Part shown: positions 1,094 to 24,620 of the stretch, one piece after another
How positions within the stretch are numbered: the stretch's first letter is position 1
Layout: the number at the start of each line of letters is the position of its first letter
Source of the DNA: Methanomassiliicoccales archaeon
Lineage (GTDB): Archaea > Thermoplasmatota > Thermoplasmata > Methanomassiliicoccales > JAAEEP01
Direction of reading: 5' to 3'
NCBI GenBank assembly: GCA_013415695.1
Contig: JAAEEP010000005.1
Location: 1 to 64,000, forward strand
DNA: 64,000 nucleotides
Position numbers and translations under genes: made by a program
The notes under the pieces: generated by a model
The model's database searches: none
The model's input: the letters and a program-made list of their open reading frames with translations, nothing else
Told to the model about the DNA's origin: nothing

Positions 1094-1912
1094 ATGGTGG
1101 AAGGAAAGGATGCCTTGGAAGGCGGATACCGCATGGTGCGTATCCAAAGGACGAAGATCTATCTGTACGCCGTGCAGCTCGTGCTGATACTGGCAATAGC
1201 CATCTTTCTATTGAACGTGGAGGGCGGTTTCTCGGTTAAACCATTCTACCTTCCGCTGGATTCATTCATATATTTCGTCATCCTCATGCTCCTTCTAATC
1301 AATGTTGAGGGTTGCTTCTTCCGGGGCTTAGAGATGAGGGTCGTCAAAACAGACAGCGCCAAGTATTACATGACGAAGAGGTCGATCCGGCGGAGCCTGG
1401 CAATCATAGCGGTCTCCGCAATAGTGATAATCATACTTTGGGTGCCAGTTATCTCTGATGGAGTGGAGTCGGTCCTCAGCGAATCCGGCGAGATCGATGG
1501 TGTTCGATCATTCTACAACAAGGACGTTCTTGGACTTACTACTACCAACCGGTTATCCTTCGCCTGCGAGGGCGAAGCATATGTATATGTAGTGACTGAG
1601 GAGAACTTCCTCATACATTCAGGCAACATGGATCAGCTTAGATTCTACAGGATCAATAGCGATAATTACATAGTCAATCCATCGACCTCGTTCAATTTCC
1701 CTGATTCGGATTACGGCAAGTTCTACATGGTCATCGACTACCGTTTCAGCTCGGTTGATACTGTCCAGTACACGGTGCATCAGACGATATCGACCACCTT
1801 CACCACTTACGTTCCCCTGTTCGCGATATTCTTCATCATCGTGAACGTGGGATGGCTCTCTTACCTACTGCCAATGAAGAAGAGGTATTCGACCAAGGCG
1901 ATCTACAGATAG
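1094..1912 (+). CDS. Hypothetical membrane protein, four predicted TM segments
   Basis: Not recognised. The product, about 272 residues, has two hydrophobic segments near the N-terminus (YLYAVQLVLILAIAIFLL and FIYFVILMLLLINV). A third (IIAVSAIVIIILWVPVI) follows a basic stretch. An extracytoplasmic-looking domain of about 110 residues comes next, then a last segment near the C-terminus (VPLFAIFFIIVNVGWLSYLL) and a short basic tail. An open frame exists from a TTG at 1037, but the TATA element at 1056 suggests ATG 1094 or ATG 1133. The gene converges on the radical SAM gene with a 10-base overlap. No catalytic motif is visible. Confidence 0.6.
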   Translation: MVEGKDALEGGYRMVRIQRTKIYLYAVQLVLILAIAIFLLNVEGGFSVKPFYLPLDSFIYFVILMLLLINVEGCFFRGLEMRVVKTDSAKYYMTKRSIRRSLAIIAVSAIVIIILWVPVISDGVESVLSESGEIDGVRSFYNKDVLGLTTTNRLSFACEGEAYVYVVTEENFLIHSGNMDQLRFYRINSDNYIVNPSTSFNFPDSDYGKFYMVIDYRFSSVDTVQYTVHQTISTTFTTYVPLFAIFFIIVNVGWLSYLLPMKKRYSTKAIYR

Positions 1913-2748
1913 AGGGCGCAACACTTGTCCCCCAAGACAACCTGATATCCAGCATTCTTGGCCCACTCAACTGTCTTCATTGAAGGGGCAGCTATTCCCT
2001 CAACACCGAGTTCCAGAGCCCGCCACTCTAAGGTCCTATCATGCCTGGGCCTCATGCAGCCCAGGAGGATGGGGCAGGACAGCGTTTCCCTGGCTTCGCT
2101 GATGAATTTTAGAATCCTTGAGGACGGAGCGTGTGGATGATCCTGGGCAAGGGTGCCCCTGGTTGGTATGAAACCCAGCACGACCAGAGAGGATATATCG
2201 AAACCGGAAACGAGTTCGAGGGCTTCTCTCTCCCCCTGAACGGTAGAGAATGGAAGACCGACACAGATGTGAGGGACGACCCTTTCTGCCCCCGATGAAC
2301 GAAGATGCTCGAGTGTGTCGGCGTACATCTTGGGTTCGAGGTCGAGGTGAAGAAGCCTTCGGATGACTATGGGGTCCTGGATCACGTCCAGGGAGAAGCA
2401 GTCGGTGCCTGTACCCACCAACCGCTCGGCGGTTTCCTTGTCGAGAAGGCCGGTGTGGATGTTGATTTCGAGATCGGTGAGGCGCTTCACCTCCCCAATG
2501 GCATCGATGAAAGGAGCCAAGGGAATCGACCCATCGGGGAGGCAACCGCCGCTTATGAGAAGGCCTTTGGCCCCCTGGATCTCAAGATCACTCGCCATTC
2601 TGATAAGATCCTGGGGTTCGGTCACATGAAGCATTCCTGAAAGGTATCTCCCATCGCAATGGTCACATCCAAGCCAACAATCGTTAGCTGTTATCGAAAC
2701 AGCAGGAAATACCTTTGCGGAATAGAAGAACGCCGCCTTTCTTGGCAT
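1903..2748 (-). CDS. Radical SAM protein of the biotin-synthase-like group (COG1856-type; possible lipoyl synthase component)
   Basis: A radical SAM enzyme: the CWLGCDHC motif (CX3CX2C) near residue 25 binds the [4Fe-4S] cluster that cleaves S-adenosylmethionine. Later blocks (ISGGC, NIHTGL, a C-terminal LGCMRPRH) resemble biotin-synthase relatives. I recall that archaeal homologues of this type were shown to form the two-protein lipoyl synthase LipS1/LipS2; whether this is one is inference. The start is ATG 2748, because GGAGGT lies 6 bases upstream. A longer open frame to 2934 would overlap the divergent L18Ae gene and adds a non-conserved-looking leader. The product has 281 residues. Confidence 0.75.
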   Translation of the reverse strand: MPRKAAFFYSAKVFPAVSITANDCWLGCDHCDGRYLSGMLHVTEPQDLIRMASDLEIQGAKGLLISGGCLPDGSIPLAPFIDAIGEVKRLTDLEINIHTGLLDKETAERLVGTGTDCFSLDVIQDPIVIRRLLHLDLEPKMYADTLEHLRSSGAERVVPHICVGLPFSTVQGEREALELVSGFDISSLVVLGFIPTRGTLAQDHPHAPSSRILKFISEARETLSCPILLGCMRPRHDRTLEWRALELGVEGIAAPSMKTVEWAKNAGYQVVLGDKCCALYL

Positions 2749-2818
2749 GAATGACCTCCGGGTATAGCATACCAAAAGCTTTATTCGATGCTTTCGCTTC
2801 ACATCGAGCGGAGATTTG

Positions 2819-3052
2819 ATGAAAGCGTTCAGGGTAATTGGTTCATTCAAGATAGACAAGCGGAAGTGGCAGGATTTCAAGCTAGAGGTCGCCGCTGAAG
2901 ATGTGGAGGGGGCTACTGACAAGGTGCTCTCCACCCTAGGCAGCCGTCACAGGCTTAACAGGAAAGAAATCCAAATCAAGGACATAGTGGAGATATCTGG
3001 AGAAGATATCAGCGACCTGACGGTCAAATACCTAGTGGAGGAGAAGGGATGA
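2819..3052 (+). CDS. rpl18a: Large-subunit ribosomal protein L18Ae (LX / L20a)
   Basis: A small (77-residue) archaeal ribosomal protein of the 50S subunit. It begins MKAFRVIGSF and has the conserved KRKWQDFKLEV and KEIQIKDIVEI blocks. ATG 2819 is preceded by GGAGA; the TTG just before it (2816) is not needed. Its stop overlaps the prefoldin start by four bases (ATGA), so the two are translationally coupled. The order rpl18Ae-pfdA-ftsY is a familiar euryarchaeal arrangement. Confidence 0.93.
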   Translation: MKAFRVIGSFKIDKRKWQDFKLEVAAEDVEGATDKVLSTLGSRHRLNRKEIQIKDIVEISGEDISDLTVKYLVEEKG

Positions 3053-3477
3053 ACGAGGAAGAACTCCGACAGATGATGGCTACGATGGAATACTATCGGG
3101 CTCAGCTAGAGGGGCTGGCGGAGCAGCAGCAGATCATCCAACTCTCCCTAGAGGAGAACATTAGAGCTAGAGAGACTTTGAAACAATACCAATCCGCTGG
3201 TGATGGATCTGAGATCCTGGTTCCTGTGGGTGGCAGCTCATTCGTGCATGCTAAAGTGGCATCCAGTGAAAAGGTTCTTGTTGGGCTTGGGAGCGGGGTG
3301 ACTGTGGAGAAGTCTGCAGAGGAGGCTCAGGACATCGTCGAAGTTCGCATAAGCGAGCTGGCTGAGACCGTCAAGAAGATCTCGGAAAGAAGGGGGTTCC
3401 TGGAAGCGGAGCACGCAAAGCTGAACCAGCAGTTCCAGGAGGCCTATCAGAAACTCCAGCAAGGGCCTAAAGGGTAG
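3049..3477 (+). CDS. pfdA: Prefoldin alpha subunit
   Basis: Subunit of the jellyfish-shaped prefoldin chaperone that captures unfolded proteins and hands them to the thermosome. The 142 residues show the alpha-subunit plan: an N-terminal coiled coil (EELRQMMATMEYYRAQLEGL), a central beta-hairpin region (EILVPVGGSSFVHAKV, GVTVEKSAEEA), and a C-terminal coiled coil rich in K, E and Q. Overlaps rpl18Ae by four bases and is followed 7 bases later by ftsY. Confidence 0.93.
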   Translation: MNEEELRQMMATMEYYRAQLEGLAEQQQIIQLSLEENIRARETLKQYQSAGDGSEILVPVGGSSFVHAKVASSEKVLVGLGSGVTVEKSAEEAQDIVEVRISELAETVKKISERRGFLEAEHAKLNQQFQEAYQKLQQGPKG

Positions 3478-3484
3478 ATATTAG

Positions 3485-4507
3485 ATGTTTGACTCGTTGA
3501 AGAAGAAGCTCTCTTTATTCAAGAAGAAGGCGGAGGAGCAGCTCCCCGAGGATGTCGAAATCGAGGAGAAGGAGTCGACTGCGTCTTCCATACCAAAGGT
3601 CGGGGAAGGCAAGCCCCCAGAACCCATAAAAGAGAAATCCAGGCGTGGATTTTTCGGGGAAGCGGGCAGAAAGATCAACGAAGAAGCGCTTGATGAGTTG
3701 CTCTGGGACCTCGAGGTAGAGCTTATGGAGGCCGATGTTGCTCTCGAGGTGGTCGAGGAGATCAAAAGTGGAGTGAAGAACTCCCTTACTGGATCAAAGA
3801 TCAGTAAGAAAACCGATCTAGGAGAGGTGGTGACGGATGCCCTCCGCGAGGCTGTTGGGGGGGTTCTGAACCAGAATGAGTTCGATTTCGACGAGTTCGT
3901 CTCACACCGGGACAAACCGGTAATAGTAATGTTCGTAGGTATCAACGGTACAGGCAAGACCACGGCCATCGCCAAGGTGGCTAACCGCCTGATTCATCAG
4001 GGGACCAGTTGCGTCCTGTCGGCTTCGGATACCTTCAGGGCGGGGGCGATAGAGCAACTGACGATCCACGGCGATAGGTTGGGATGCAAGGTCATCAAAC
4101 ACAAGGCTGGGGGAGACCCGGCCGCGGTGGCCTACGACGCGGTTGAACACGCCAAGGCTCGCAGGAAGGACGTGGTGCTGGTAGACACCGCGGGAAGAAT
4201 GCAGACCAACATCAACCTCATGGATGAGATGAAGAAGATAAAGAGGGTCGCAAAGCCAGATCTTGTTCTTTTCGTTGGCGATTCGCTCGCGGGCAACGAC
4301 GCCATAGAACAGGCCAGGGCATTCAATGCTGCCGTTGGTATTGATGCGGTGATCCTAACCAAGATAGACGCTGATTCCAGGGGGGGTGCGGCACTCTCCA
4401 TCGCATACACGGTAGGAAAACCCCTGGCTTTCCTCTCGACCGGACAGGAGTATGACCAGTTCGTCAAATATGATCCCAAATGGATGATAGAAAGGATCTT
4501 TTCCTGA
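3485..4507 (+). CDS. ftsY: Signal recognition particle receptor FtsY
   Basis: The SRP receptor GTPase that docks SRP-ribosome complexes at the membrane. The N-terminus is a short charged A domain (residues 1-60, lysine/glutamate rich), followed by the N helical bundle and the NG GTPase domain. Visible motifs are G1 GINGTGKTT (about residue 152), the insertion-box DTFRAGAIEQL, G3 DTAGRMQ, G4 TKIDADSRGG and a C-terminal closing helix. The length of 340 is normal for an archaeal FtsY. It is the last gene of the rpl18Ae-pfdA-ftsY operon and is followed by a GC hairpin. Confidence 0.96.
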   Translation: MFDSLKKKLSLFKKKAEEQLPEDVEIEEKESTASSIPKVGEGKPPEPIKEKSRRGFFGEAGRKINEEALDELLWDLEVELMEADVALEVVEEIKSGVKNSLTGSKISKKTDLGEVVTDALREAVGGVLNQNEFDFDEFVSHRDKPVIVMFVGINGTGKTTAIAKVANRLIHQGTSCVLSASDTFRAGAIEQLTIHGDRLGCKVIKHKAGGDPAAVAYDAVEHAKARRKDVVLVDTAGRMQTNINLMDEMKKIKRVAKPDLVLFVGDSLAGNDAIEQARAFNAAVGIDAVILTKIDADSRGGAALSIAYTVGKPLAFLSTGQEYDQFVKYDPKWMIERIFS

Positions 4508-4520
4508 AATATTAGAGATT

Positions 4521-4546
4521 GGGGGGTCTATCCCCCTTACTGTTTT
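4521..4546 (+). terminator. Hairpin plus T-rich tail after ftsY
   Basis: A G6 run, a TCTAT loop and a C5 run form a short stem, followed by TTACTGTTTT. It lies between the convergent ftsY and M20 peptidase genes. The same C-run plus TTACTGTTTT pattern recurs at the end of the ATP synthase operon near 23175. Confidence 0.55.
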
Positions 4547-5859
4547 CACTCTTCTATGCCAAAATCGTTAGGGAAGCACAGGAATGCCAGGACCGTGGCG
4601 AAAACCTTTGCGTCATCAACCAAATTGTCAATCCGGCAGAACTCGTCTACGCTGTGTGCCATCTCCTCAACCGTCTGCCAGGAGTAGGCTGGGTACCCTT
4701 CCAACCGGAACAGGTTGGCACAGGTGCCGCCTCCGATTCCCCGGGGTTGCGGCTCCACGTTCCTCACTTTCTTGACTGCATCGCTGAGACGCTTCACCGC
4801 TTCGGATTCGTGGTCAGATGGCTGCCCAGATCTCGTTTCCTGCTCTATTTCGACGCTAATTTTAGCGCCCGTACGATCTTCGAAGAGGCTTGCCACCTTC
4901 TTAATCGATTCCAGCACATCGTCAGGATCGTAATCTGGAATGATTCTGCAGTCAAAGTAGAAAACGTCGTCTCCAGGAATGGTGTTGATGTTTCCAACCG
5001 TCTGCAATCTCTTGGTGGGCTCGAACGTGCATCGGGGAGGAATGAACATGTGATCCATTTTCCCGTACTTGTCTTTCAAGTAATCCAACAAGAATACTAT
5101 GAACTCGGAGCCCACCTTCATCGCGTTTATTCCCTTGGAGGGCATCGAAGCATGGCTCTGCTTCCCCTCAACCGTCACTTTGAGCCACAGAACGGATTTT
5201 TCAGCGACCTCGATGACCGAGCCATCAGAAACGCCGAAATCTGGCACATAGATTATATCATCCTTGCTGAAGACCCCTTCTTGAATGAGGAAGTTTATTC
5301 CTTTGTCACTTCCCGTTTCCTCGTCGGCCACCATGACAAGGCCATAAGTCATATCCGGGCTCATTTCCATCTCGTTGAGGGCCTTGACAGCGAACATGGA
5401 TGCGATCAGGGCCTGGCCGTTATCCTCGGCGCCTAGCCCAAAGATCTTGCCGTCCTCCTCTTTGGGAGAGAAGGGTGGGTGGCTCCAGGCATCGAGATCG
5501 CCGGGTGGTACCGTGTCCATGTGGGTTACTATCCAAACGGTTCGATTGGATCTACCCCTCCGCCTGGCCACGATGTTCGGCCTAAGCCTGAGGCGGACCC
5601 TCTCATCTAGGGCGTCAAGCATCTCGATGTCTTCGAGGCCACAGCGCCCTGCCAGATCTCTCACATAGCGGGCTCTTTCGAACTCTCCGTCCCCACCATT
5701 CTCTGGTCCTATTGCTGGGATGCGGAGTAGCTCCTTTAGAGCGTCGGCCATTTCGTCTCTGTAGCCGTCAATAGATGCGATGAGTCCATCAATGGATGGC
5801 ATATGAATCCCGGTGGAAAAGAGCCTTCTCATAATAAAGGATTTACGCTCGGATTCCAT
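4546..5859 (-). CDS. M20 family metallopeptidase (ArgE/DapE/carboxypeptidase-like)
   Basis: A di-zinc amidohydrolase of the M20 family. The first metal block THMDTVPPGD and the second ADEETGSDKG (containing the catalytic/bridging acidic residues) are present, as are GLGAEDNGQA and a C-terminal AHSVDEFCRIDNLV with the last ligand. A dimerisation domain lies between (HASMPSKGINAM). With 437 residues it fits the ArgE/DapE/Acy1 group, but the substrate (N-acyl amino acid, succinyl-diaminopimelate or a dipeptide) cannot be read from the sequence. The start is uncertain: ATG 5859 is AT-rich and has no Shine-Dalgarno sequence; ATG 5802 is an alternative. Confidence 0.85.
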   Translation of the reverse strand: MESERKSFIMRRLFSTGIHMPSIDGLIASIDGYRDEMADALKELLRIPAIGPENGGDGEFERARYVRDLAGRCGLEDIEMLDALDERVRLRLRPNIVARRRGRSNRTVWIVTHMDTVPPGDLDAWSHPPFSPKEEDGKIFGLGAEDNGQALIASMFAVKALNEMEMSPDMTYGLVMVADEETGSDKGINFLIQEGVFSKDDIIYVPDFGVSDGSVIEVAEKSVLWLKVTVEGKQSHASMPSKGINAMKVGSEFIVFLLDYLKDKYGKMDHMFIPPRCTFEPTKRLQTVGNINTIPGDDVFYFDCRIIPDYDPDDVLESIKKVASLFEDRTGAKISVEIEQETRSGQPSDHESEAVKRLSDAVKKVRNVEPQPRGIGGGTCANLFRLEGYPAYSWQTVEEMAHSVDEFCRIDNLVDDAKVFATVLAFLCFPNDFGIEE

Positions 5860-9128: not shown

Positions 9129-9217
9129 GGTACTAATTGCAGCATATCCTTTCTTGTTCCATATACTTCTGTAAAGGTAGAGAAAGATTGAATAGAGACC
9201 TTTATCTTGGCCAATTT

Positions 9218-9568
9218 ATGGCGAAGCCTTTCTTGATCGAAAGAGCCCCTGTCGTCTCGGGTCTGTTGTTCATACTGGGTTTGGCTCTGACCCTGGTTGG
9301 AATAGCTGGTACGTTCAGTCCCGACCTGATTGATTTGGGGGGAGCGGATCTGGTCGTGCTCATAGCTGGAATCCTGTGTCTTCTAATCGGGCTAATCTGG
9401 ATAGTGACCTTTCAGTCGAGGGTCAGAAAATTCTACAACCTGCTTTCCGAGAACAAGAAAGCCGTCTTCATCAAGAACCTCGACGAAGTCGAGTATGTGG
9501 CTTGGAGATTGCCCGTTCGTTACGAAGAGGAACTTAATGAGAAGAAGAGGAAGTTAGGGATCAAGTAG
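9218..9568 (+). CDS. Hypothetical two-TM membrane protein
   Basis: Not recognised. Two hydrophobic segments (VSGLLFILGLALTLVGIAG and LVVLIAGILCLLIGLIWIVTF) are followed by a basic cytoplasmic-type tail of about 55 residues ending in a lysine-rich stretch (NEKKRKLGIK). The chosen start is ATG 9218 (116 residues). A longer frame from ATG 9137 begins upstream of the likely promoter (CCATATAC near 9161). It is divergent from the OB-fold gene and ends 6 bases before an origin box. Confidence 0.6.
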   Translation: MAKPFLIERAPVVSGLLFILGLALTLVGIAGTFSPDLIDLGGADLVVLIAGILCLLIGLIWIVTFQSRVRKFYNLLSENKKAVFIKNLDEVEYVAWRLPVRYEEELNEKKRKLGIK

Positions 9569-9573
9569 GGGGG

Positions 9574-9595
9574 ACCCCTTCATTTCCTGTGGAAA
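9574..9595 (-). repeat. Origin recognition box copy 1 (inverted)
   Basis: Read on the minus strand this is TTTCCACAGGAAAT followed by GAAGGGGT. It differs from the two copies near orc1 at one of 22 positions. The dyad TTTCCACAGGAAA followed by a G-rich run is the layout of archaeal ORB elements. Confidence 0.8.
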
Positions 9596-9643
9596 TTAAA
9601 ATCGGGGGTAGCGCGGGAGTCGAAAATGTTCTTATGAGATCTT

Positions 9644-10984
9644 TTAACTGGGGAATGGTCGTTCATCCAGTTCGTTTTGGTGAGTGTTTTCTCTGTGATA
9701 GATGGAGGTTATGTGACCGTCAAGGGCAATGATGGACCTTGATATCCTCTCCAGATCTTTATCCCTACATTCAAGGGATATGTTGATGTCTGTGTCATAT
9801 TTGATGCCGATCACGTCAGATACGTCGTAAAGATGGGAAACGAAGGGTTGCGAATCAGATGTATTGGGTATTGAGAAATTCATTATACATCCATATCTAA
9901 AGAAGTCAACAACACTCTCCAGTAGAGTGTCCACGCCTTGGTTGAGCATGAGGGATATTGATAGTGTCCCTGCTTCCGGTAACAGTTCTCTTAATCTCTT
10001 TAACTTACCATCCACTCCATCGGGATCTAGGTCTGTCTTGTTTAAAACAATTATGATATTGTCAGGTGATATTTCTGGTAGAAGTATCTTTCTTGAAGTT
10101 TCAAGTTTTTTCTGGATGGTATCGACAGAATCCGATGAATCGATGACCAGGAGTATGAGATCAGATAGATACAGATCCTCTATGGTGGTCATGAAAGATT
10201 CTATCATGAAGTAGGGTAAATCCTGAATGAACCCTATCGTATCGGAGATCAGTATCCCTTTTTTTACATCACTCAATCTTCTTGTGGTGGTAGAGAGAGT
10301 GGAGAACATGCGATCCTCGACCACAACTCTCTCACCAGTAAGTCTGTTGAGGAGAGAAGACTTCCCAGCGTTCGTATAGCCTGCAATGCCAACTAGGAAG
10401 AATCCTTTACTTCTTCTATGCTTTCTTCTAATATCCTCTTCAAGATTTATAGTACTTAATTCCTCACTTATTTTTCTTATCCTCCTCTTCACAAGATCAT
10501 AATAAACATCGATCTGATACTCACCGCTTCCCAGAAAACCCGGGTGTTCTCCCATTTTTGCACTGTGTATCCATTCTCTGAGGAGGGGGATCTCGTACTC
10601 TAAACGAGCCTTCTCAACCTGCAATCTCGCTTTCTTATCCCTAGCTTTCTCAGCAAATATGAGAAGTACCAAACCGATTCTATCCAGACACTCGATTTTT
10701 AGAGAGTTCTCGAGATTGAAATGTTGCTTCGGCCTCAGATTTCCATTGATCAAGACAACATCAACCGGATGGACTAGCAACAAACTCTTAAGACTGTTGA
10801 ACTTGCCCTTTCCCAAGAACGTGGGAGAGTTACCATCAGACTTTCTCTGTATGACTTCGAATATTACTTCGAACCCTGCGGATTCGGCCAACATTTCCAA
10901 CTCAAAAACATCCTCAGTCAAAGTAATGATTGCCGCTGAACGCCTCTGCTTCGATTGCCCCATCTTACTTGATATCGAGTTCAT
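9644..10984 (-). CDS. hflX: HflX-type ribosome-associated GTPase
   Basis: GTPase of the Obg/HflX superfamily that binds the large ribosomal subunit and is implicated in ribosome splitting or rescue. The N-terminal HflX domain has the glycine-rich GKGKFNSL segment and a long helical part. The G domain shows G1 GYTNAGKSSLLN, G2/switch STLSTTTRRL, G3 DTIGFI and G4 NKTDLD. Length 446. ATG 10984 overlaps the upstream PPC gene by 20 bases; ATG 10963 is an alternative. The gene is noticeably AT-richer than its neighbours (many TTT, ATA and AGA codons), in keeping with its place inside the proposed origin. Confidence 0.92.
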   Translation of the reverse strand: MNSISSKMGQSKQRRSAAIITLTEDVFELEMLAESAGFEVIFEVIQRKSDGNSPTFLGKGKFNSLKSLLLVHPVDVVLINGNLRPKQHFNLENSLKIECLDRIGLVLLIFAEKARDKKARLQVEKARLEYEIPLLREWIHSAKMGEHPGFLGSGEYQIDVYYDLVKRRIRKISEELSTINLEEDIRRKHRRSKGFFLVGIAGYTNAGKSSLLNRLTGERVVVEDRMFSTLSTTTRRLSDVKKGILISDTIGFIQDLPYFMIESFMTTIEDLYLSDLILLVIDSSDSVDTIQKKLETSRKILLPEISPDNIIIVLNKTDLDPDGVDGKLKRLRELLPEAGTLSISLMLNQGVDTLLESVVDFFRYGCIMNFSIPNTSDSQPFVSHLYDVSDVIGIKYDTDINISLECRDKDLERISRSIIALDGHITSIYHRENTHQNELDERPFPS

Positions 10985-11387
10985 AGTAATCTGTCACGGG
11001 ATTCAGCGTTCTACCTATCCAAATATCATCAGGTATCTTGGATATCAAGATTTCATTTAGGTTGGTTACAGTTCCCCCAAAAAGATGTCCTCCAACCACT
11101 TCGTATTTCCTGCTAGCAAGAGATGCATGGAGGTGTATGGGAACCTCAGCGTCAAGCGTGACGGTCCCAGTCAACGATAGGAGCTCGTACGGCTCCTCGA
11201 ATAGTCTCTTTAAATATCCCTCTCTGGTGTAATACCCAAGGGTAAAATCACGAAGTATACCTATCCCCGAATGGATCCACCCCATTCTGATGCCGTCCCT
11301 TCCACAAATACTCAAGAGACTTTCGTGGACGTCCTCCCCATCATCCAATTTTATTATCATCACGTTCTCAGCGGTCTTGTGTTTCAT
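10965..11387 (-). CDS. PPC/DUF296 domain protein
   Basis: A small (140-residue) stand-alone PPC domain (plants and prokaryotes conserved, DUF296). The signature runs from the N-terminal LDDGEDVHESL through GSGIGILRDFTLGY-like strands to the histidine-containing EVPIHLHASL and GGHLFGGTV. These histidines form the metal site of prokaryotic members, whose biochemical role is unknown; plant members fuse it to AT-hooks. ATG 11387 is preferred; a TTG at 11411 is also possible. It overlaps hflX and lies immediately beside the origin boxes. Confidence 0.85.
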   Translation of the reverse strand: MKHKTAENVMIIKLDDGEDVHESLLSICGRDGIRMGWIHSGIGILRDFTLGYYTREGYLKRLFEEPYELLSLTGTVTLDAEVPIHLHASLASRKYEVVGGHLFGGTVTNLNEILISKIPDDIWIGRTLNPVTDYYELDIK

Positions 11388-11467
11388 GTAATCCAACGTT
11401 CTATCTGACAATCATTATTTCAAGGTTAGTGAACAATGCAAAAACGCTCGCCACAGGCGTGTTTGAG

Positions 11468-11492
11468 TTTCCACAGGAAATAAAGGGGTGGG
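11468..11492 (+). repeat. Origin recognition box copy 2
   Basis: TTTCCACAGGAAATAAAGGG followed by GTGGG. It is identical over 25 bases to the copy at 11618 and in the same orientation, 150 bases away centre to centre. The G-rich side points toward orc1. Confidence 0.85.
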
Positions 11493-11617
11493 TCTTCGAA
11501 TTCTGGGTTACCCCTGTTAACCACAAAGGATGAACCTCTTTAAAGCCCCCCTCGTCGATAAAAGTAAAGTACATCTATCCGCTTTCCCATTTTGACTTGG
11601 AGACGGGATACCTCGTT

Positions 11618-11642
11618 TTTCCACAGGAAATAAAGGGGTGGG
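11618..11642 (+). repeat. Origin recognition box copy 3
   Basis: The same 25-base sequence as the copy at 11468, 28 bases before the out-of-frame ATG of orc1. It abuts the probable orc1 TATA element (CCTTTTAGA), so initiator binding here could also repress orc1. Confidence 0.85.
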
Positions 11643-11644
11643 AC

Positions 11645-11653
11645 TCCTTTTAG
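11645..11653 (+). promoter_or_regulatory. TATA-like element for orc1/cdc6
   Basis: TCCTTTTAGA is centred about 22 bases before ATG 11671. That spacing would suit a leaderless transcript beginning near that ATG. Confidence 0.35.
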
Positions 11654-11670
11654 ACACCGACTCAACTCAA

Positions 11671-12920
11671 ATGGGGGAGAGTATCTGGAGAACAACATAT
11701 TCACTCAGCACCTCAGGGCCAACAGCATTTTCAGGAGGAACAGGGAGATCCTGAGACCATCGTACATACCAGACGAGCTCCCTCATAGACAGCATGAAAT
11801 AGACCAGCTCGCCTCAGTCCTGGTAACCGCCCTGAAAGGGGAGCGACCATCCAATATACTGATTTTCGGAAAGACTGGCACCGGAAAGACAGCATCAGTG
11901 AAGTTTCTCGGGAACGAGATCCACAAGGCAGACTCGGATTTCAAACGTGTTACCTTCATCTACATGAACTGCGAGGTGGTCGATACCCAGTACGGAATTC
12001 TGCAGAACATTGGTAACAGGTTCATTGGGGATTTCGACGAAAGAATCCCCTTTACTGGATGGAGCACAGAAAGGGTCTACAACATCCTGAGGGAGAAAAT
12101 AGACGAAGAGAGCAAGATCGCAATCATCGTTCTGGACGAGATCGACAAACTCGTTTACAAGAGTGGTGACGACGTCTTGTATCACCTCTCCAAGATCAAT
12201 GACGACCTAAAGAACGCAAAAGTGTCGTTAATTGGCATATCTAACGATCTCAAGTTCACCGAATTCCTTGATCCAAGGGTAAGGAGCAGGTTGGGCGAGG
12301 AGAAGATGGTGTTTCCACCCTATAATGCGGAGCAGCTGAAAGACATTCTTCATCAGAGGGCCGAGCTGGCCTTCTTCAATGACGCCGTAGACTCAGGGGT
12401 AATTCCACTATGTGCCGCGCTAGCCGCCCAGGAGCACGGAGACGCAAGGAGAGCCCTTGATCTACTGCGTGTTGCGGCGGAGATAGCGGAGAGGGTCAGC
12501 GACGAGCGGATCACCGAGGCTCACGTTTACAAGGCAAAGAACAAAATCGAGCTCGATTGCGTGACCGAGACGGTTCGGACGCTACCGGCGCAATCCAAAC
12601 TGGTCCTTTATGCGATAATCACGAACGAGGAACGCGGCACCAACCGCCAGACAACGGGGGAGGTCTATCAGACCTACAAGGATCTTGCCAGAATGGCCGG
12701 AGTGAGTGTGATAACCCAGAGACGGGTCGCCGATCTGATATCAGAGCTCGACATGCTGGGAATAATTCACGCAAGGGTGAAATCCTTCGGCAGGGGAGGC
12801 CGAACGAGGGAGATAGAGTGCAGCGTCTCCACAGCCGATACCAAGAGGATCCTGGAGGAGGATGAGATGTTACACGATCTGAAGAAATACAAGCCCAAGA
12901 CTCAGACAACCCTCATCTGA
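11671..12920 (+). CDS. orc1: Orc1/Cdc6 replication initiator, start out of frame (probable 1-base deletion)
   Basis: AAA+ initiator that binds ORBs and loads MCM. Reading from 11685, residues ENNIFTQHLRANSIF and REILRPSYIPDELPHR form the normal N-terminus. Then come Walker A FGKTGTGKT (11865-11891), Walker B IIVLDEIDKL, sensor 1 GISNDLKF and a C-terminal winged helix (LARMAGVSVITQRRVADLI). The first standard in-frame start is GTG 11898, which lies inside the P-loop helix and would delete Walker A. ATG 11671 is one base out of frame. One extra G in the G5 run at 11673-11677 would give MGGEYLENNIF and about 416 residues, the usual size. A CTG start at 11685 is the other option. Confidence 0.9.
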
Positions 12921-13893
12921 TCTTCTTCTTTGGCCCCTTCTTCTCGGGCTCGCAGGCAACATCCGAAAGACACTCATCTTTTTCTTTGCTGGAACGCCTC
13001 AGACCGAACCTCTTGGTCCACGCCCAGATGTCCACCCCCCTGTGCTTCATTATGACCGTCGTCACATCGAGCACTATCGGCACTCCTATGATTATCCCCA
13101 AAGTTAGCCAAAGGTTCGTGACACTATTCTGAGGAACGTTATCTGGGGCTTCGCCGGTCACCCAAAGCTTGAACAGGCCGAACCATGGAAGCTCCCCCCT
13201 TGCCGCGCCCAATACCCAGTTGTATTGTATGGGCTCCCTGCAAATGGCCAGCTGATCATAAAGACCCACCAGCTCACCCCCCTGGTAGGCCATGTTGTGG
13301 TCCCCCATGGTAATAAAACCGCTGTGAGGGACACGCCCTCTGCCATGGAAATAATTGATCAAAGCACCAAGATCCAAATGGATCGTGACCTCCATGTATC
13401 CTATGTCATATATCTCCACTATGCCATCAAGGTTCCACCAGACCTGCTGGCTGGATCCAAGCACATTCCACTGATCCGCGGGTATGTCCGCCAGTTCTGG
13501 AACATCGAAACCGCCTCCGGTGGTGTTGTACTCCACTCTGCACATGGTCCTATGGATGATCGATTTGTAGTTGGGGTTACCGTATCGTTGATAAATGATG
13601 ACGTCACCATATTCCCCATAGGTCTGGTACCCAATTTCTTGGCCCTGAAGGTAGGTAATGACGGTAGCGGGGTCCTTTTCCTTGACCAAGACCAAGTCTC
13701 CTGTGTCAATTATGCCGATGAAGCTCCTATCGCTGGAGTGTTGCATGCTGTCGGATTCCACCACGACCATCGGGGGCCATTTCCCAGTGTAGGCATAGAG
13801 AGAAGCCATGATGATAACGACCACAACAACGGCCACTATCACGCCCTTGATGGCACCAGGGATGCCCTTAGATCTCCTGTCCTCTTGGGGCAC
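12913..13893 (-). CDS. sec11: Signal peptidase I, archaeal/ER (Sec11) type
   Basis: Membrane serine protease that removes Sec signal peptides. An N-terminal TM anchor (GVIVAVVVVVIIMASLYAY) precedes the catalytic serine in VESDSMQHS. The histidine of IIHRT, which replaces the bacterial lysine, and the aspartate of ITMGDHN complete the archaeal/ER-type site. A second TM (LWLTLGIIIGVPIVLDVTTV) and a basic tail follow. At 326 residues it is longer than most archaeal enzymes, with an insertion between the His and Asp motifs. It converges on orc1 with an 8-base overlap. Confidence 0.9.
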   Translation of the reverse strand: MPQEDRRSKGIPGAIKGVIVAVVVVVIIMASLYAYTGKWPPMVVVESDSMQHSSDRSFIGIIDTGDLVLVKEKDPATVITYLQGQEIGYQTYGEYGDVIIYQRYGNPNYKSIIHRTMCRVEYNTTGGGFDVPELADIPADQWNVLGSSQQVWWNLDGIVEIYDIGYMEVTIHLDLGALINYFHGRGRVPHSGFITMGDHNMAYQGGELVGLYDQLAICREPIQYNWVLGAARGELPWFGLFKLWVTGEAPDNVPQNSVTNLWLTLGIIIGVPIVLDVTTVIMKHRGVDIWAWTKRFGLRRSSKEKDECLSDVACEPEKKGPKKKIR

Positions 13894-23201: not shown

Positions 23202-24620
23202 CTAAGAATTGAAATCCATCATTGTGCTTCTTCCAGTTCCCAGGTGGATGATGGGGACCTTCGCCGGATCTGGATTAAAATTGTGCATTCTCTGGAAGGA
23301 AGTCTGGGCCTGCCAGGTGGAGGCGTTGATAAGCTTCACCCCCCGGTACTCGGACAAGCCTGCGCCGTGAACGTGCCCGGTTACGAAGATATCAGGAACT
23401 TGGTCTATGACCAGGTAATCCTCCTTCTCTGGGGCCAGGGGGGTCTTGCCTCCATACATTGGTGAGAGATGCCTGCGCTTCAGCATCTCCTTCATGGCCT
23501 CAATTGGCGTCTCGTAACTCAAGGACTGGACGTTATTGATTAGGTCATCCATGCTCCTACCATGGTATGTGAGAATGGACCGTCCCTCGATCTCAAGGAG
23601 GCAGGGATTACCAACGAATATTATCGAAGAGTCGAAGAGATCAGTTATCTTCTGCGAGAATGTGGGTTGGGGCTCCGCCGGACGCACCGCATCGTGATTC
23701 CCAGGTTGTACGACGAGTTTAATCCCGTCAGGAATGTCCTTGAAGAATTCTGAGAGTCTCTCGTATTGCTTGAAGATGTCGTCTATCTCCAGCTCATCCT
23801 CCTGATTGGGGAAGATGCCGATGCCGTCCACGATATCACCCGATATCACCATGTACTCGATCCCATCCTCCTTCCAGGTGCTCCTGAGCCAGGAAACCAT
23901 TCGCTCCCATTGCTTCTGAAGGAAAGTGTTGCTGCCAACATGTATGTCTGAGACGAACGCAACCGACGCAGAAGAATCGATGGGCTGGAGGGTTTTCGTC
24001 AGAGGGATGTCAGGTCTGATCAGTTCTTCCACGATGACCATATCGCCTTTTGCCGAGGTCTTGCCTACGATGCCGATGACTTCGTCTGGAATGATAGACT
24101 CGTTGATGAGATCCGAGCTCTTCGTGATCAGAGCCAGGCATCTGCTTTCCTCATCCTCGACCTCAAGCATCTTGTGGCCGTTCTTGGTGCTCCTCACCTC
24201 ATTCACCATGGCAATGAAGCGGACCTCCCTGGACACCTTTATGGCCTTTTCGATTGAAATGGAGCCCGCGAGCTCTCTCCTCCTCACCAGCATCTTCTTG
24301 ATCTTGCGGAAGCGGTCCAGGAAACATCTGGCAAAATCGGTGATATCGCCCTCGCAGCAGGAAAGGCCGGTAACGTCCCGGAGGATCCTCACTTCCGTCT
24401 CCTTCCTGGGAATGACGGGGGCCGGAGGATCGGGAAAAGCCTCAATCACCCCGTTTGGCACAAGGTCGTCTAGCGTCAGAATAAGGGGCTTCTGGGGCAT
24501 CATTGAAAGCGCCGTCTTCGCATAAGTCAACGGATCATTCTGGCCAAGAAGGTAATCTATGGCGTCGGGCTCCAGAAGTACGCCATCGCTTGCGAGTGCC
24601 TCCAAAACACGTCCCTTCAT
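23202..24620 (-). CDS. polB: DNA polymerase D small subunit (DP1, exonuclease-type)
   Basis: Small subunit of the euryarchaeal replicative PolD with 3'-5' proofreading nuclease activity. After an N-terminal helical region and an OB fold (about residues 110-200), the calcineurin-like phosphoesterase domain keeps the metal motifs SDIHVGS, SGDIVDG, PGNHDA, YHGRS and TGHVHG, so it should be active. The 472 residues are near the short end for the family. ATG 24620 lies about 190 bases from the divergent UPF0201 gene. Confidence 0.95.
   Translation of the reverse strand: MKGRVLEALASDGVLLEPDAIDYLLGQNDPLTYAKTALSMMPQKPLILTLDDLVPNGVIEAFPDPPAPVIPRKETEVRILRDVTGLSCCEGDITDFARCFLDRFRKIKKMLVRRRELAGSISIEKAIKVSREVRFIAMVNEVRSTKNGHKMLEVEDEESRCLALITKSSDLINESIIPDEVIGIVGKTSAKGDMVIVEELIRPDIPLTKTLQPIDSSASVAFVSDIHVGSNTFLQKQWERMVSWLRSTWKEDGIEYMVISGDIVDGIGIFPNQEDELEIDDIFKQYERLSEFFKDIPDGIKLVVQPGNHDAVRPAEPQPTFSQKITDLFDSSIIFVGNPCLLEIEGRSILTYHGRSMDDLINNVQSLSYETPIEAMKEMLKRRHLSPMYGGKTPLAPEKEDYLVIDQVPDIFVTGHVHGAGLSEYRGVKLINASTWQAQTSFQRMHNFNPDPAKVPIIHLGTGRSTMMDFNS

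Follow-up and report, generated by a model that had tools for sequence, protein, structure and literature searches.

A predicted oriC1-type replication origin with outward-facing recognition boxes around whole genes beside orc1 in a Methanomassiliicoccales archaeon

How can a chromosomal replication origin hold two whole genes between its initiator sites? The question is raised by a stretch of 64,000 nucleotides from a Methanomassiliicoccales archaeon (contig JAAEEP010000005.1, assembly GCA_013415695.1), hereafter the window, in which three putative origin recognition boxes (ORBs) lie beside the initiator gene orc1/cdc6.1 and two of them enclose hflX and a PPC/DUF296 gene. For three species of this order, an origin at orc1/cdc6.1 with ORB pairs is published (Borrel et al. 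2014, PMC4153887), and an origin has been described in one further species (PMC5011839). We consider it probable that the two enclosing boxes and the DNA between them, which we call the bracket, form a chromosomal origin of the oriC1 type. Orc1 monomers would bind both boxes, which point apart, and recruit MCM helicases inward, toward the AT-rich DNA between them, and two forks would depart in opposite directions. Orc1 binding and convergent MCM loading are proposed by analogy with Sulfolobus, and we infer the start site. Whole genes could lie between the boxes because the known archaeal origin layout would here be stretched from ~130 bp to ~1.9 kb.

The motif TTTCCACAGGAAATRAAGGGGT has exactly three matches in the window: a distal box at 9574-9595 on the minus strand (the G variant), a middle box at 11468-11489 and an orc1-proximal box at 11618-11639, both on the plus strand. 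None of 100 window shuffles contained any match at up to three mismatches, and the chance expectation is none. The boxes combine an imperfect dyad, TTCCAnnGGAAA, with a G-run, matching the archaeal consensus in Table 2 of PMC4153887. A related 20-mer, searched with up to two mismatches over the 1.99-Mb assembly (41 contigs), found the three window boxes and a single further match, within mcm (C19:4276). Distal and middle boxes form an inverted pair, 9574(-) and 11468(+). The G-run of the distal box points leftward, thus outward, and the box lies 5 bp past the DUF3198 stop codon, with an orthologous '-' box upstream of orc1 across the order. The middle box, whose G-run points rightward, is the right edge of the bracket and is also conserved. 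The proximal box corresponds to a box that relatives have near -63, counted from the orc1 reference point, and that stays with orc1 away from the bracket; it probably doubles as an operator of orc1, and we infer that its role is mainly autoregulatory. The original prediction, an origin with three boxes beside orc1, had given the 22-mer at these three places, the first inverted and with one change. These positions and orientations proved exact, the identity of the two plus-strand copies over 25 bases was confirmed, and the genome search that it had proposed showed that the 22-mer is not dispersed. Its view of the boxes as archaeal-type ORBs, a dyad plus a G-run, fits their motif, rarity, neighbours and conservation across the archaeal class.

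The outward orientation of the pair is a rule among relatives. A position weight matrix trained on strict ORB matches found 118 sites when run over related orc1 loci totalling 879 kb, against 1 in the same DNA reversed. When adjacent boxes within 6 kb were counted over 85 deduplicated box-bearing loci, with direction defined by the G-runs, 63 pairs faced outward, 1 inward and 29 were in tandem; spacing was 1.3-5.2 kb in 60 of the 63 outward pairs. The usual layout in the order consists of the DUF3198 gene, immediately followed by a '-' box ~1.5-2.1 kb upstream of orc1, hflX, and '+' boxes near -200 and -63. PPC stands beside hflX in few loci, and one of the two '+' boxes is missing in some. 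The spacing had originally been called wide and unusual: wide it is, with two genes between the boxes, but it is not unusual, being the conserved layout in relatives.

The genes inside the bracket differ among families, which enclose hflX (with PPC here), hflX and DUF3198, DUF3198 alone, gcvT with an oxidoreductase and DUF3198, or orc1 itself. Boxes bracket hflX in families f8, f19 and f22, the latter two without orc1 in the ~10-kb stretch examined. The pair of family f10 stands ~3.0-3.2 kb apart around gcvT, a disulphide oxidoreductase and, in most genomes, also DUF3198, and in family f16 the DUF3198 gene is alone between boxes 498 bp apart. Nearly all genomes of family f2 lack hflX, and there the outward pair encloses orc1 over 1.5-1.7 kb. 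The one short-bracket locus of the order (L025), also without hflX, has an outward pair 273 bp apart with an interior of 20.8% GC. Six genomes of f10 have orc1 on a different contig, where a box of its own sits at the gene start or just before it, and the bracket stays behind. Since orc1 keeps its own box when it is elsewhere, the box pair and the single box of orc1 seem to have separable functions, the first for the origin and the second for orc1 itself. At one further locus (L062) hflX is flipped inside the bracket and the boxes are still outward.

The bracket interior (9596..11467, 1872 bp) is the candidate zone for unwinding and MCM loading. It has 42.7% GC against 52.7% for its contig, lower than any 1850-bp segment across the 137 kb that were analysed in this genome. 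Interiors are AT-richer than their flanks in all 42 loci of the order (35/35 with hflX or other genes inside, 7/7 in f2), though the boxes do not bound the AT-rich zone sharply. The GC depletion of orc1 is -11.5 points inside the bracket, in f2, versus -1.1 outside, and in 31 of 31 loci hflX has less GC at third codon positions than orc1 does. An intrinsic AT-richness of the hflX gene was ruled out as the cause, as it is near neutral away from boxes (L162, L163, L175); in f22, a GC-rich family, even a position within the bracket does not make it AT-rich. The interior does not correspond to a compact non-coding unwinding element of ~0.1-1 kb. Because of its length and its mostly coding content, we regard the locus as a variant and not as a standard member of the oriC1 type.

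The adjacent gene is, judged by its sequence, the orthologue of Orc1-1, the best PDB match of its product being 2qby_A (S. solfataricus Cdc6-1, E 1.4e-110). It occupies 11685..12920 on the plus strand, encodes 411 aa with the Pfam domains Cdc6_C and AAA, and probably starts at a CTG. No in-frame ATG, GTG or TTG is found upstream of the conserved N-terminus, and the in-frame CTG at 11685 is preceded by GGGGGAG. The claim that the direct copies end just before orc1 can accordingly be refined to 45 bp between the proximal box and the likely start. Among relatives, this codon is TTG in one locus (L011), and four (L013-L016) have no ATG, GTG or TTG there. A second orc1/cdc6 paralogue is located on the same contig (C5:72575-73645), 61 kb away. 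A stronger box cluster at another orc1 would have spoken against an origin here; near this paralogue no comparable box was found, the best match having five mismatches.

The fourth ORB of the genome (L010:4274-4296, contig C19) lies within the mcm reading frame (1320-5582), in the second of two intein domains, a mini-intein. The first intein (L010 ~2400-3999) carries LAGLIDADG and HTH domains. Compared by place, the strict motif is within the intein in 31 of 35 intein-bearing genomes. For codon analysis, mcm inteins were gathered by protein similarity only; of 30 loci, the 27 that have the matching peptide were retained. The peptide is TPSFLVE, whose codons on the opposite strand read GTTCCACAAGAAATGAAGGGGT. 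In these 27 relatives its codons are nearly frozen (ACC 26/26, CCT 27/27, TCA 22/24, TTT 27/27, CTT 22/27, GTG 25/25, GAA 21/27), and Phe elsewhere in the same intein alignment is TTC 186 times versus TTT 24. The genome studied here has ACC CCT TCG TTT CTT GTG GAA. Excess codon homogeneity has a mean of 0.78 in the box; for 92 further conserved columns the mean is 0.09 (p=7e-5). Among seven-column windows, the box ranks first for this measure. As its codons hardly change while other conserved codons vary, we conclude that the box is selected as DNA. Recent spread of one intein was ruled out as the source of the identical codons, since the remainder of the protein is divergent (median identity 53%) and its codons are scrambled. 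The box may be an additional Orc1 site, serving possibly in mcm regulation or as an Orc1 sink that is duplicated soon after firing. On contigs that carry both genes, roughly 20-29 kb separate mcm from orc1, with mcm towards hflX. In another genome (G061) a box precedes an mcm gene by ~700 bp.

Solo boxes occur elsewhere too. Family f8 has a conserved one over the first thiC codons, beside divergent gyrB (L245, L246, L249, L254, L260, L263, L267, L269, L270). Three species of one f2 genus (L232, L233, L234) have one beside the same ABC-transporter-like gene, and in some f2 genomes solo boxes at unrelated genes are unexplained. It is tempting to propose, with the chances evenly balanced, that the Thermoplasmata origin is a long-range outward ORB pair, usually of 1.3-5 kb, with exchangeable genes inside and partly independent of orc1. 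Solo Orc1 sites would then stand at orc1 and mcm, the mcm site being preserved as DNA in the mini-intein, and the intein would be a carrier of an initiator site that links Orc1 to the helicase gene.

Several results weigh against an origin at the bracket. The MCM model was built on a geometry of 130 bp, from which a gap of 1.9 kb is far removed. A sharp AT step was expected at the boxes and not found, the AT-rich zone overrunning them by ~450 bp. Some families outside the order show little or no AT-richness (f22, part of f10), and the third-position GC depletion of f2 orc1 is not significant (5/7, p=0.11). In two closed relatives, 20 sampled stretches apiece (some one fifth of either genome, the one studied here being in 41 contigs) gave GC and GGGT skews that were weak and contradictory, with no consistent switch at the locus, and could not confirm an origin here. 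A compact origin between PPC and orc1 (~11412-11690), made of the middle and proximal boxes, with the distal box as an accessory such as an Orc1 titration or enhancer site, is the rival that we take most seriously, yet we think it unlikely. Compact origins directly upstream of orc1 are common in archaea (PMC4010727), haloarchaea have separate regions rich in ORBs that can have a negative effect (PMC3936714), and in relatives a distance of ~145-150 bp between the middle and proximal boxes is frequent. However, these two boxes point the same way and thus are not the inverted pair needed in Sulfolobus, the distal box is retained in one orientation across relatives, and where orc1 is elsewhere the outward pair remains at the bracket.

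It would be more surprising still if the boxes did not define an origin at all and served as operators for the transcription of an Orc1 regulon, which would comprise orc1, hflX, mcm and other genes. One box does keep an almost constant position upstream of orc1 and accompanies that gene, solo boxes are present in mcm and at the thiC/gyrB junction of another family, and a non-initiator Orc1 paralogue is known as a transcription regulator (PMC9738581). But we judge this very improbable: it leaves unexplained the 63:1 outward pairing, the exchange of the bracketed genes and the brackets that hold the DUF3198 gene only. Chance, or a dispersed mobile repeat, is refuted by the shuffles without matches, by a total of four genome copies and by positions conserved over an archaeal class. 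An origin at the boxes beside orc1, as originally proposed, is supported as a prediction by motif, rarity, neighbours, the paralogue check and class-wide conservation.

The neighbour identities given in the original prediction were upheld by Pfam. Inside the bracket, both on the minus strand, are the genes for the GTPase HflX (9644..10984; GTP-bdg_N/M and MMR_HSR1) and for the PPC/DUF296 protein (10965..11411; PCC, PF03479). The DUF3198 gene (9137..9568, plus strand; PF11433) abuts the distal box. Several families have it within the ORB bracket or next to it, even where orc1 is absent (L168, L210, L211), and it appears to be an origin-linked gene for a small predicted membrane protein. Further away are the genes for PriS (47-1009) and the small subunit of PolD (23202-24620). 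The product of 12913-13893, which has no Pfam match, is presumably signal-peptidase-like, as judged by eye.

Current archaeal models load two MCM rings face to face across ~100 bp of DNA, and separated inverted sites are discussed for yeast. If true, gene-bearing brackets of 1.3-5 kb would raise the questions of how distant sites cooperate, nearer to the separated inverted sites of yeast, and of how transcription through an origin is tolerated. An initiator site kept inside an intein would, if true, be a selective reason for intein retention. Both ideas are testable in cultured Methanomassiliicoccus. A limited literature search, with few papers examined fully on this point, came upon neither the hflX bracket nor the intein box in earlier work.

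The closest known systems are the Methanomassiliicoccales origins of PMC4153887, which in the sections compared share the orc1/cdc6.1 locus, the ORB consensus and a second orc1 without boxes. These sections do not mention an outward hflX bracket, its conservation, an AT-rich interior or an intein box. Table 2 of that paper gives only two ORBs for M. luminyensis and none ~1.6 kb further out, unlike here, whereas its table for M. alvus implies ORB pairs ~1.8 kb apart around orc1, a precedent for a wide pair. Haloarchaeal oriC1 (PMC4010727, PMC3936714) resembles our locus in its inverted G-string ORBs and its neighbours (a figure legend names a GTP-binding protein, cdc6, signal peptidase and DNA polymerase), but here the left ORB lies beyond hflX. 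In Sulfolobus oriC1, two inverted ORBs flank a DNA unwinding element (DUE) within 130 bp, and both are essential and direct MCM into the DUE (PMC12141716). Inverted ORBs around an AT-rich interior beside orc1-1, with a related initiator, are common to both, while ORB3-DUE-ORB2 of Sulfolobus is 130 bp with a ucm element and the corresponding distance here is ~1.9 kb with two genes (PMC12141716).
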